A stretch of DNA of 61,222 nt. Source: Bacteroidaceae bacterium. Lineage in GTDB: Bacteria > Bacteroidota > Bacteroidia > Bacteroidales > Bacteroidaceae. The notes under the pieces were generated by a model. The model was not told the DNA's origin. It did not search any database and saw nothing but the letters and a program-made list of their open reading frames with translations. Position 1 is the first letter of the stretch; each line of letters opens with the position of its first letter. The translations under genes and the position numbers were made by a program. Of the stretch, positions 34,982-54,035 are shown piece after piece. The stretch spans positions 1 through 61,222 of the forward strand of contig JAFYMP010000018.1 in assembly GCA_017556585.1 (NCBI GenBank), given 5' to 3'.

Positions 34982-35743
34982 ATGGCTACAAAAATACAGC
35001 AAATATTAGAGACGGCGCCCAATGAATCGGTCTTGTTTGGTTCGTGGCTTTCAAGTCAGGGATTAGATGCCCGTGGTCAGTATGCTTATATGAAAAGTGG
35101 ATGGCTTGACCGTATATCGAAAGGAGTTTATAAGATACATGGGACAGAACCAAGCCTATTTGCTGCTGTATCGTCATATAACACGCAACTCAGTAAGAGT
35201 TGTGTGGTAGGTGCATATACAGCTTTGGAACTCCGAGGTTACTCCCATTACCTATCTATGGGGAAACCTACGGCTTATCTGTTTACAGACAAAAGCAATA
35301 AGTTGCCTTCGTGGGTGCTAAAAGAGGAGTGGGATATGACCATAAAATACATGACCACTTCTTTCCTGGGTGATGAACTGTTGTGTGTAGAAACTATGAC
35401 TATCAATCAGCATGAATTGCTTGTGTCATCTCCAGAGCGTGCCATATTGGAGTGTTTGAACTTGCCGGATGCATCGTCATCTTTGCTCGATATCTATTAT
35501 ATCATGGAGGGTTTGACTACATTACGTCCCAAGATGGTTCAGACATTATTGGAGGCATGCACCTCTCAGAAAGTGAAACGCCTGTTCCTCTATATGGCAG
35601 AAAAGGCTGGTCACTCTTGGTATAAGGCTTTGAAACTGGAAAATGTCAATCTTGGCACATCTAGGTTTATGATAACGTCAACAGGAAAGTACATTAATAA
35701 GTATAATATGACAATCTCAAAAGAACTTGCAGAATATGAATGA
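34982..35743 (+). CDS. AbiEi-family antitoxin / transcriptional regulator of a type IV toxin-antitoxin system
   Basis: A 253-aa protein whose N-terminus (about 5-60) reads as a winged helix-turn-helix (ETAPNESVLFGSWLSSQGL, AYMKSGWLDRISKGVYKI), the promoter-binding part of AbiEi antitoxins. The C-terminal domain carries SSPERAILECLNLP, common to this family. It overlaps the toxin gene by 8 nt. In known AbiE systems the antitoxin does not bind the toxin but opposes its action and represses the operon. Intact, with its own promoter. Confidence 0.88.
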   Translation: MATKIQQILETAPNESVLFGSWLSSQGLDARGQYAYMKSGWLDRISKGVYKIHGTEPSLFAAVSSYNTQLSKSCVVGAYTALELRGYSHYLSMGKPTAYLFTDKSNKLPSWVLKEEWDMTIKYMTTSFLGDELLCVETMTINQHELLVSSPERAILECLNLPDASSSLLDIYYIMEGLTTLRPKMVQTLLEACTSQKVKRLFLYMAEKAGHSWYKALKLENVNLGTSRFMITSTGKYINKYNMTISKELAEYE

Positions 35744-36662
35744 TATAAGATCAAAAGTTTATGCGCAGAAGGTTGAATTGCTACTCCGTCTCATTCCGAT
35801 TGTGATGGAAGAGGATGTGTTTGCCATACATGGTGGCACCGCCATCAATCTGTTCTTGAAGGATTTGCCTCGTTATTCTGTAGATATTGATTTGACCTAT
35901 ATTCCATTGGCTGACCGTCAGACAAGTTTGGACGACATCAATATGCATCTGAAAGCCATCGCTGAAAAGGCAAAGAAAGCATTCAAAGGAATGCATATTG
36001 TTCCCAATTTCAATACTTGCAAACTGTTGTGCGAGTATCGAGGCAAACAGGTGAAGATTGAGGTCAATCAAACCAAGAGAGGAATAGTAGGCGGTGCTGT
36101 CCAAACTATACCATTGAGTGAGAAGGCTCAGGAAGAGTTTTCTCTCTTTTGTGAGGCAAATGTTGTACCCCTAACTCTATTGTATGGTGGCAAGATCGCA
36201 GCAGCACTCTCTCGTCAGCATCCTCGTGATTTGTTTGATATAAGGTACATGGATATTCCATTGAGCGAATGTCGAGAGGGACTCATCTTCTGTTTGCTTG
36301 GCAGCGATAGACCCATCCATGAATCATTTGCTCCACGCCTGATTGACCAGCGAGAGGCAATGGAAAACCAGTTTGCAGGCATGACTGATATTCCTTTTAC
36401 ATACGAAGAGTTTGAAGTAACTCGTGCAAAACTCATTAATGATGTAAAGTTGTTGATGACAGAATCGGATAAGAAGTTCCTGATTACTTTCGAATCTGGA
36501 CAACCAGAATGGGAAGGATATGAGTTTGAATATTTCAAGGATTACCCATCTGTACAATGGAAACTTCTTAATCTGAAGAAACTCGGCAAGCAGAATCCGC
36601 AGAAGTTGCAGGAAGAAGCGGAGAAACTAAGAAATCTCTTTAATTTCAATCTCAATAATTAA
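35736..36662 (+). CDS. AbiEii-family nucleotidyltransferase toxin
   Basis: A 308-aa (from ATG 35736) nucleotidyltransferase-like toxin. The hallmark FAIHGGTAINLF (residues 29-40) and the metal-binding DID pair in RYSVDIDLTY (46-55; Asp50, Asp52) match AbiEii. LTLLYGGKIAAALSRQHPRDLFDI supplies the family's K...R..D.FD motif. I prefer ATG 35736 to the TTG at 35727. The paired antitoxin is directly upstream. Related toxins nucleotidylate tRNA or use GTP, and the systems act in phage defence. Confidence 0.9.
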   Translation: MNDIRSKVYAQKVELLLRLIPIVMEEDVFAIHGGTAINLFLKDLPRYSVDIDLTYIPLADRQTSLDDINMHLKAIAEKAKKAFKGMHIVPNFNTCKLLCEYRGKQVKIEVNQTKRGIVGGAVQTIPLSEKAQEEFSLFCEANVVPLTLLYGGKIAAALSRQHPRDLFDIRYMDIPLSECREGLIFCLLGSDRPIHESFAPRLIDQREAMENQFAGMTDIPFTYEEFEVTRAKLINDVKLLMTESDKKFLITFESGQPEWEGYEFEYFKDYPSVQWKLLNLKKLGKQNPQKLQEEAEKLRNLFNFNLNN

Positions 36663-52214: not shown

Positions 52215-52521
52215 CGAATAAGCGAGCGAGAAATCTCAAGCTTGCTTGAACATTTTTCACAGCGAGCTCAACTAACTTTTAGATTTGTGATAGCAATACA
52301 CCGGCGGTCCTCCCCACCTACGTGGGTCCCCTCCCTTTTGGGGAGCCAATGCCGTCTTGTGTCTTCTATCAAAAAAACCAATAGCTCTATTGTTAACAAG
52401 CTATGCTAGCAAACTTAACCTGTTACTGTTTTGTGGATGGCATTACAAATGTCTTTGTTACGATGGAGTAAGGTTTATTTGAATAAAAATAAACCTATGG
52501 GTTAATTATTTTCTCTAACTA
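52215..52521. other. Non-coding region with a GC-rich double hairpin
   Basis: No gene is seen. Inside the AT-rich stretch, 52301-52354 is GC-rich and folds: CCCA..TGGG (52313-52326), TCCCC..GGGGA (52327-52344) and an outer CGGC..GCCG. It has no T-run, so it is not an ordinary terminator. The remainder is plain AT-rich sequence before the toxin-antitoxin promoter. Confidence 0.5.
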
Positions 52522-52552
52522 TTGGTGAATATGAAAAATTATTCTATTTTTG
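52522..52552 (+). promoter_or_regulatory. Promoter of the candidate toxin-antitoxin-chaperone operon
   Basis: TTG at 52522-52524, 20-bp spacer, perfect TATTTTTG at 52545-52552. Predicted transcript start is about 40 nt before the first gene. Confidence 0.55.
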
Positions 52553-52597
52553 CATCAAAATTGATTTTATTATAAACTCTTAAGTTAATTTATTACC

Positions 52598-53143
52598 TTG
52601 AATATTGTAAAAATATATCCGCCATTCTTGTATAGCATACAGTACGATGATGCTGAAGAGAATGAGTTTGACAGATTGTTTCAGAAATGGAATGACGTAG
52701 AGTATGTTGTTAACTTCTTGAACGAAAACAAGGATATGCTATTGCATCCAATATGGCTGAACATTACTGAACCAGAGGAAGCCGCCAAACAAGTACTGAA
52801 AGAGGCGGAAGAATTGGAAAATTTTTTAATTGATTTATGTGAAAATGTTGCTGAAGGAGAAACGCCAGACTTAGATAGTCATTTTAAATTCTTAGATGGA
52901 ATATATAAGTATGAGATAGAATACATTCCAATGAAATCTTACGGAACGGTAAGGCCCTCTTTGTTGAGAATGTATGCAATCCGTTTGGGTACCAATACCT
53001 ATCTCATTACAGGTGGTGGTATCAAATTGGCTGATACAATTCAGAATTCTCCAGGCTTAAAAGAACATGTATTGCAAAATATTGATAAAGTAAGAACGTG
53101 GCTGAAGAGTATGGGTATATATGATGGAGATGATATTAACTAA
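52598..53143 (+). CDS. Candidate toxin of a toxin-antitoxin-chaperone operon (181 aa)
   Basis: Not matched to a named family. The frame can only start at TTG 52598, since a TAA lies 10 nt upstream and no ATG fits, giving MNIVKIYPPFLYSIQYDDAE. The N-terminal half is acidic and helical, containing EEAAKQVLKEAEELENFLIDL. The C-terminal half (about 105-175) has strand-rich pieces, KYEIEYIPMKSYG, LLRMYAIRLGTNTYLITGGG, then a terminal helix ending VRTWLKSMGI. That order is like the end of HigB/Gp49 (RelE-superfamily) toxins, a weak likeness. It is 5 nt before an HTH gene that is followed by a SecB-like gene, so a toxin role is inferred from context. Confidence 0.6.
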   Translation: MNIVKIYPPFLYSIQYDDAEENEFDRLFQKWNDVEYVVNFLNENKDMLLHPIWLNITEPEEAAKQVLKEAEELENFLIDLCENVAEGETPDLDSHFKFLDGIYKYEIEYIPMKSYGTVRPSLLRMYAIRLGTNTYLITGGGIKLADTIQNSPGLKEHVLQNIDKVRTWLKSMGIYDGDDIN

Positions 53144-53157
53144 AATATATGCAGATT

Positions 53158-53595
53158 ATGGGGTTCGATATTAATAAGTTGAATGAAATTGCAGTTCTAC
53201 GTAGCGAAGCTGCAAAGCAAAGCGCAATGAATAGACGCGAGAACCGTGAATACATTCGTATGTCACAAGACATTGCATTATGTATACATTATTATCTGCG
53301 CAAGTCTAATATGACTCAAAAAGAATTTGCAGATAAAATGGGAGTGTCTCCGGCTTATATTGGTCGTTTACTAAAAGGTGGTGAAAATCTCACACTTGAA
53401 ACTATTTGTAAGGTGCAAAATGTTTTGGGACAAGATTTAATTAGAGTTACTACACCTTACGTTATAACACAAATCATATCTTTTCATCCTATGCAAACTC
53501 CACAATTTACAGAGACGGTTCGTAGCGATAGATACGTTGGAGTGCAAACGTACAATAATAATACATCTTTTACTGACAATAATTCAGTAGCATAA
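53158..53595 (+). CDS. XRE helix-turn-helix antitoxin with C-terminal extension
   Basis: A 145-aa protein from ATG 53158 (ATG 53149 is also possible). N-terminal helices precede a Cro/CI HTH at about 48-95: MTQKEFADKMGVSPAYIGRL, then LTLETICKVQNVLGQDL. The order toxin-then-HTH is that of HigBA. After the HTH there is a tail of about 45 residues, without clear fold, containing TQIISFHPMQTPQFTET and RSDRYVGVQTYNNN. This could be a chaperone-addiction (ChAD) region, as in HigA1 of M. tuberculosis TAC. The next gene encodes the SecB-like partner 11 nt later. Confidence 0.8.
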   Translation: MGFDINKLNEIAVLRSEAAKQSAMNRRENREYIRMSQDIALCIHYYLRKSNMTQKEFADKMGVSPAYIGRLLKGGENLTLETICKVQNVLGQDLIRVTTPYVITQIISFHPMQTPQFTETVRSDRYVGVQTYNNNTSFTDNNSVA

Positions 53596-53606
53596 AAATT
53601 GAAAAT

Positions 53607-54035
53607 ATGAATGAGCAGATAATATACAAATATGTGAAGATGGAAGTGGAACAATTCGCTATGTTCGAGGAAAACATTCCATTAGAAACAAATGATGTAC
53701 AATTCCAAACAGGAGTACAATTCTCTTTTGATAAGGATAACAGTATTCTATGCAGTAAAGTCGTAGTAACTATATCGCAAGAAAACAATCCAATTATGAA
53801 AATAGATTTGAATAATTACTTTGAGATAGCTTCTGAATCTATAAGCAACCTTATGCAAGAAGAGAAATTGGTATTTTCTCCCCCTATACTAGTGCAGTTT
53901 GCATCATTAGGTTATGGTGCTATACGTGGCATTATGTACACCAAAACTATGGGAACTGCATTAAGTACATTTATATTACCACCCATTTATTTAGGTAATA
54001 TGATAGACAAGGCATTTGTTGTTAGATGTATATAA
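53607..54035 (+). CDS. SecB-like chaperone of the TAC operon
   Basis: A 142-aa protein with a SecB-like layout: beta strands (TNDVQFQTGVQFSFDKDN, SKVVVTISQENNP, MKIDLNNYFEI) and then a helical part with APILxxxxRG-type order, LVFSPPILVQFASLGYGAIR and TALSTFILPPIYLGNMI. In SecB and Rv1957 the same order is strand-rich core, L/Y-P-x-x-R, then L-PP-x-x-L. It is a distant match read by eye. Third gene of the operon. It ends inside the scar of a propeller gene on the opposite strand. Confidence 0.65.
   Translation: MNEQIIYKYVKMEVEQFAMFEENIPLETNDVQFQTGVQFSFDKDNSILCSKVVVTISQENNPIMKIDLNNYFEIASESISNLMQEEKLVFSPPILVQFASLGYGAIRGIMYTKTMGTALSTFILPPIYLGNMIDKAFVVRCI

Follow-up and report, generated by a model that had tools for sequence, protein, structure and literature searches.

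Three short genes that follow one another on the forward strand of a Bacteroidaceae contig (61,222 nucleotides, the whole of which is termed the window below) raise the question of whether they constitute a toxin-antitoxin-chaperone (TAC) operon and, if so, what kind of toxin such an operon would hold in check. A preliminary description made from the letters of the window had proposed this reading, with a first protein of no recognised family, an XRE antitoxin carrying a tail of about 45 residues after its helix-turn-helix (HTH), and a SecB-like third protein, all served by one good promoter. The three genes and their tight spacing are borne out by the open reading frames, with gaps of 14 nt between the toxin-like and antitoxin genes (counted from 53158) and 11 nt between the antitoxin and chaperone genes. 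The features of the locus are as follows:

52490-52507, + strand: first copy of the candidate operator, palindrome TAAACCTATGGGTTAATT, an exact match just upstream of the promoter-like pair
52522-52552, + strand: promoter-like pair read from the sequence, TTG (52522-52524), 20 nt, TATTTTTG (52545-52552)
52573-52590, + strand: second copy of the candidate operator, TAAACTCTTAAGTTAATT, an exact match between the promoter-like pair and the toxin start, beginning 25 nt before the latter
52598-53143, + strand: toxin-like gene, 181 aa, TTG start; PDC-M64 toxin family, possible remote relative of Gp49/HigB
53158-53595, + strand: XRE antitoxin gene; the frame opens at 53149 (148 aa), the likely start being the ATG at 53158 (145 aa)
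53443-53592, + strand: C-terminal tail of the antitoxin, 50 residues ending in SVA; predicted chaperone-addiction region
53607-54035, + strand: SecB-type chaperone gene, 142 aa

As frames were opened at the first ATG, GTG or TTG, the lengths given here may be a few residues too long; for the antitoxin the start is probably 53158, since the corresponding methionine is where two relatives, L022 and L025, start. Its HTH is recognised by Pfam HTH_3 (3.9e-11, residues 48-96 of the 148-aa frame), and the tail that follows comes to about 50 residues, in agreement with the initial description. The promoter-like pair fits what we take to be the -7/-33 consensus of Bacteroidetes-type promoters, and two relatives, L022 and L023, share its TAT.TTTGCA; however, TTG-N18-22-TANNTTTG is found at 11 places on the + strand and 4 on the - strand of the window, so that the pair is present as proposed but by itself is weak evidence for a good shared promoter. 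The genes flanking the module look, mostly by eye, like ordinary chromosomal ones. Elsewhere in the window (34982-36662) an AbiEi antitoxin (PF11459, 5.3e-48) and an AbiEii toxin (PF08843, 9.5e-23) form a type IV pair, that is, a second conflict module.

If the three genes form a functional unit their order would be expected to recur, and the comparison with other genomes that the preliminary description had suggested recovers it widely. All three window proteins match PADLOC models of the candidate system PDC-M64 (3.8e-10, 2.3e-16 and 4.8e-9 for toxin, antitoxin and chaperone respectively). The chaperone model, PDLC04763, finds matches in 21 of the 201 genomes examined from the family and in none of 14 control genomes; 11 of these 21 loci, including that of the window, show toxin, HTH and chaperone genes in order, another breaks off where its contig ends and nine contain the chaperone alone. 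At the level of the order, a search selecting by toxin alone obtained matches to a toxin profile in 42 of 295 genomes; of the 29 loci read from this search besides the window, 18 have all three genes and 11 toxin and HTH only, though one of the 11 (L039) ends 170 bases past the antitoxin and may thus be a two-gene locus in appearance only. The five loci with named records to which a closer toxin alignment led in a genome scan all carry the three genes, and at the level of the phylum the chaperone profile has matches in 59 of 296 genomes, lone chaperones included. Scans of viral sequences returned 1, 0, 1 and 2 loci; in phage records one unannotated toxin relative and no relative of the chaperone was found. 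Plasmid records gave three matches to the window toxin, the same three to another long toxin, none to a short toxin and one to the chaperone. Two of the plasmids, CP103229.1 and NZ_CP103198.1 from gut Bacteroides and Phocaeicola, encode the toxin with a 101-aa antitoxin and no chaperone, annotated as a hypothetical protein and an HTH regulator, and such two-gene plasmid forms are as expected of an addiction module.

The resulting set comprises 49 three-gene loci, the window included, and 13 two-gene loci. Copies of the window (L016, L028 and L058) and duplicates (L025, equal to L005, and L089, equal to L027) were dropped before counting; L005 and L025, the latter from the rumen MAG RUG207, have the same three proteins. 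A further locus, L009, is cut before the toxin and enters no three-gene count, only the chaperone profile. As loci were partly chosen by their chaperone, the proportion of three-gene to two-gene forms is no estimate of their frequency. In 49 of the 49 three-gene loci the order is toxin, HTH, SecB-type protein on one strand, with gaps that range from -89 to 83 nt and for the most part differ from zero by no more than 25 nt; the 48 loci other than the window are 44 from Bacteroidota genomes, three from viral contigs and one from a plasmid. With whole-genome searches covering Bacteroidota and the 14 control genomes, the module is spread over the phylum Bacteroidota. Its neighbour in the window, rnz, has 33 matching relatives within the genus. 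When 29 genus loci were searched by tblastn with the proteins of the window, none showed the module beside rnz, the flanks being 731-1500 bases long, in which distant toxins could be missed. In most of these 29 loci a ribosomal-S1-like gene (named by eye) lies beside rnz, and no clean empty insertion site was seen among them.

The likeness of the third protein to SecB, which had been called by eye and on whose support by profile searches the preliminary description had staked its reading, is a matter of the family rather than of the single protein. The window chaperone shows no match to Pfam or NCBIfam models, those of SecB included (only chance matches at E 0.1 or worse), and sequence searches of the PDB with the single window proteins gave nothing significant. 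Across its family, PF02556 is matched by just 3 of 78 members, and any one NCBIfam SecB model by at most 3 of 78. PF02556 scores over its cut-off in 3 of 99 Bacteroidota genomes, and two of these three proteins (L094 and L096) are the third gene of the same module, their adjoining toxins matching the module toxin profile at 4.5e-23 and 2.1e-24. The remaining PF02556-positive SecB (L095, 885-2136) lies between two small unassigned proteins of 81 and 189 aa, the latter with no Pfam match, and perhaps represents another type of TAC. An hhalign comparison of 48 module chaperones with L094, L095, L096 and E. coli SecB gave 122 aligned columns at a probability of 94.5% (P 7.4e-8), and 93.2% (P 3e-7) when E. 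coli SecB was left out, against 0.2% for a control comparison of the module chaperones with Gp49. Conversely, a profile of the four SecB sequences run against 2161 ORFs retrieved, apart from its own input, only four sequences at E 1 or better, each of them a member of the module's chaperone family (5.3e-5 to 7.9e-3). With E. coli SecB alone the family gives no signal, either by hhalign (0.4%) or in a profile search; in PDB searches the chaperone profile A11, which includes the two Pfam-positive members, retrieved only SecB entries at E 0.78, and profile A2 retrieved nothing. The L-PP element noted earlier in the window protein is present as ILPPIY, and R107 and P125 are invariant in 78 aligned sequences. 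The SecB ancestry of the family is well supported by these comparisons, and we infer a SecB fold for the third protein.

Members of the same family also occur without a toxin-antitoxin pair. Four of 28 lone loci (L003, L011, L014 and L019) adjoin SecDF, two by Pfam and the others by tblastn, an adjacency that fits an export chaperone; these proteins are perhaps the export SecB of their bacteria, missed by Pfam SecB. A further 17 of the 28 (L068, L070, L071, L073 and L075-L087) adjoin MurB, in genomes which, read by eye, we take to be Chlorobium-like.

TAC antitoxins have been reported to bear a C-terminal extension (ChAD), absent from two-gene homologues, which hinders folding and recruits the chaperone (PMC5105189). 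A comparable contrast is seen within the present family. Antitoxins measure 117-179 aa in three-gene loci versus 87-111 aa in the 13 two-gene loci; the part up to the end of the HTH is alike in length (81-110 versus 84-99), and it is the tail that differs, with 22-93 aa in the 49 three-gene loci versus 2-8 aa in 12 of the 13 two-gene loci and 27 aa in the remaining one (L049, identified by length). The sharpest case is a pair of antitoxins, L031 and L032, with 62 of 91 residues identical (68%): L031 stops three residues past this match, at the end of the HTH, and has no chaperone gene, whereas L032 continues into a 58-residue tail and is followed by one, which would be the pattern expected of chaperone addiction. 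On the toxin tree, from which L035 with its 93-aa toxin ORF was excluded, five changes between the two-gene and three-gene states are required, four of them forced by well-supported branches. In all 4 independent pairs the antitoxin with the tail is the one accompanied by a chaperone, a number too small to reach significance (sign test p 0.125). The window's own genome encodes a two-gene relative on contig 71 (L129, 2566-3386, not counted among the 13), with a toxin ORF of 183 aa, a tail-less antitoxin of 90 aa and no adjoining chaperone ORF. The last residue is A, G or S in 38 of 49 three-gene antitoxins; among the toxins and chaperones of these loci, 49 of each, this holds for 1 and 3 respectively. 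Reading this end as a degron is soft, because 5 of the 13 two-gene antitoxins and 19 of the 28 lone chaperones share it; CmdA, the antitoxin of CmdTAC, is reported to end in LAA and to be degraded by ClpP (PMC11618068).

That the first protein belongs to no recognised family was right for Pfam and NCBIfam, where the window protein has no match (only chance matches at E 0.1 or worse), yet it matches PDC-M64 as stated above, and the corresponding model PDLC04756 recognises 56 of 62 toxins, as PDLC04763 does 76 of 78 chaperones. Short forms of about 150-170 aa and long forms of about 170-215 aa, to which the window toxin belongs, make up one family (hhalign 98.1%, P 6.6e-14). Its near-invariant residues are F96, L123, R124, Y126, G140 and K143, of which R124 is kept in 61, Y126 in 62, G140 in 60 and K143 in 58 of the 62 aligned toxins. 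A profile of 15 short-form toxins found Gp49 toxins as its first eight matches outside the family (2.2e-4 to 0.024); in the reverse direction a Gp49 profile listed ten module toxins first, only at E 0.06 to 0.76, and with a long-form profile Gp49 toxins did not come first. By hhalign the whole family aligns with Gp49 over 54 columns at 42% (P 2.6e-4), the short forms at 16-36% and the long forms at 2.6%. The Gp49 model PF05973 does not match the window toxin; up to E 0.1 it matches 2 of the 62 toxins, the best at 0.0027, which is no better than unrelated families, as these reach 4e-4. Searches of the PDB with toxin profiles gave nothing significant. The earlier view of a protein longer than HigB and weakly related to RelE thus holds, and the toxin appears to be at most a remote relative of the Gp49/HigB branch of the RelE superfamily.

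Basic residues reported for the catalytic pocket of HigB are R68, R77 and K95 in M. tuberculosis numbering (PMC9098466). In the alignment, R124 and K143 of the module toxin fall on the R of [YW]R[IV]F and the first K of FQKK in Gp49, and by our own mapping, which goes by spacing, they would match HigB R77 and K95; for R68 no conserved counterpart is present in the family. The toxin is most readily understood as a HigB/RelE-type core extended at its N-terminus, a reading we hold to be probable. We also infer an RNase activity for it.

Alignment of the leader with those of L022 and L023 uncovered a palindrome, TAAACYNNNNRGTTAATT, which at up to one mismatch has just two sites in the window, both exact (0.34 expected; 6 of 100 shuffles reach two) and both placed around the promoter-like pair. 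When two mismatches are allowed, 28 of the 62 toxin genes have a copy in the 250 nt preceding them, counting the window and the rest of the three-locus discovery set, as compared to 1.9 in mononucleotide shuffles and to 3 of 292 control upstream regions, one of the three being the same stretch viewed from its opposite side. For 20 of the 28 loci the distance from the beginning of the best copy to the start codon is 19-25 nt. By toxin class it is found at 27 of 38 long-form, 0 of 16 short-form and 1 of 8 other loci, and it marks the long-form subclass. We regard it as a candidate operator, which fits autoregulation by the antitoxin.

Taken as a whole, the locus is very probably a TAC operon encoding a toxin, its antitoxin and a SecB-type chaperone that sustains the antitoxin, a reading to which the gene order, the relationship to SecB, the tail that tracks the chaperone gene and the recurring promoter palindrome all point. 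That the third gene is instead a housekeeping SecB which follows a toxin-antitoxin pair by chance might be argued from the lone relatives beside SecDF and MurB, and is highly improbable in view of the same order in 49 loci, of the tie between antitoxin tail and chaperone, and of the correlation between toxin, antitoxin and chaperone distances (r 0.58-0.84, 0 of 2000 permutations in each case, shared descent not being removed). Within a TAC module, the toxin could have another fold or activity than the ribosome-dependent RNases of the HigB type, as CmdT does in CmdTAC. We consider this unlikely: the absence of a Pfam or NCBIfam match, the 2.6% alignment of the long forms with Gp49 and the missing counterpart of R68 among the HigB residues reported in PMC9098466 speak for it, whereas the short forms, clearly of the same family, find Gp49 toxins first and the nearly invariant R124 and K143 align with Gp49 residues that we equate with HigB R77 and K95.

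Somewhat more room is left for the view that the genes serve addiction of a stress or plasmid type and play no part against phages, the chaperone merely adding a folding checkpoint. The two-gene forms on plasmids, one of them near a gene of the zeta-toxin family, are in keeping with it; on the other hand the module figures in PADLOC as a candidate for defence, and the E. coli modules CmdTAC, MqsRAC (PMC11618068, PMC9519451) and HigBAC (PMC11980606) are reported to defend against phages. We consider an addiction-only role fairly unlikely. For HigBAC a tail protein of phage lambda is reported to break the contact between antitoxin and chaperone (PMC11980606), and for CmdTAC a surplus of chaperone is reported to lessen the defence (PMC9519451). 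A part in phage defence is suggested for the present TAC operon by this analogy and by the PADLOC listing. Under this proposal the XRE antitoxin would bind and silence the toxin and, acting at the two palindromes, repress the operon. The C-terminal tail of the antitoxin would not fold alone and would be held by the SecB-type chaperone, failing which the antitoxin would be degraded; its end in a small residue (here SVA) resembles ClpXP-type tags. A phage protein or a stress that occupies the chaperone would then lead to loss of the antitoxin and free the toxin, probably a translation inhibitor of the HigB/RelE type with an added N-terminal part, which would stop the cell and limit the spread of the phage.

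Among known systems, HigB1-HigA1-Rv1957 of M. tuberculosis (PMC5105189, PMC9098466) has the very order to which the preliminary description had likened the locus, with the toxin first, the HTH antitoxin second and the SecB-type chaperone third; an antitoxin with a C-terminal tail is likewise common to both and a HigB-type relationship of the toxins is likely. The present module differs in its 181-aa toxin with an N-terminal addition and remote Gp49/HigB similarity, in a chaperone too diverged for Pfam SecB and in its Bacteroidota hosts. With CmdTAC/PD-T4-9 and MqsRAC of E. coli (PMC11618068, PMC9519451) it shares the three-gene TAC organization and a SecB-type chaperone, and the PADLOC model PD-T4-9_C matches 2 of the 78 chaperones, probably L094 and L096. 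CmdT is an ADP-ribosyltransferase, unlike the module toxin as judged by PADLOC matches: PD-T4-9 models are absent among the five PADLOC matches of the window toxin, the matches of the window antitoxin and the nine families matched by the 62 toxins. HigBA pairs with a Gp49-like toxin (PF05973) have the toxin first with an HTH antitoxin in most of 30 Gp49 loci and share the core motif R-x-[YF] ... K; their toxins are mostly 103-126 aa long as against 181 aa here, and the module chaperone family is absent from these 30 loci.

By its anatomy the module is a TAC system already listed as PDC-M64, and its toxin family seems undescribed. The new Bacteroidetes class envisaged at the outset is indeed spread over the phylum but had not gone unseen, as PADLOC carries it as a phage-defence candidate, in an entry without description; a search of open-licence literature found no paper on the module or using the term PDC-M64. 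What is added here is the assignment to the TAC class, the addiction-like tail, the two-gene forms and their contrast with the three-gene ones, the possible place of the toxin near Gp49, and the candidate operator. More tentatively, and with considerable doubt, these modules might be a phylum-wide class of chaperone-addicted anti-phage systems with a new family of toxins, whose target is possibly not the ribosomal A site and whose N-terminal addition in the long form would serve the choice of target, the two-gene twins then reflecting repeated gain and loss of addiction.

The TAC modules tested so far come, according to the reports available, from E. coli, other Proteobacteria (in the old sense) and Mycobacterium, and their chaperone can be captured by phage structural proteins. 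The close natural pairs of two-gene and three-gene forms described here would make the onset and the end of chaperone dependence in an antitoxin directly testable, and the operator palindrome may serve as a DNA marker for finding further modules. Spread as it is over Bacteroidota, the class may represent a phage sensor in gut and rumen bacteria.
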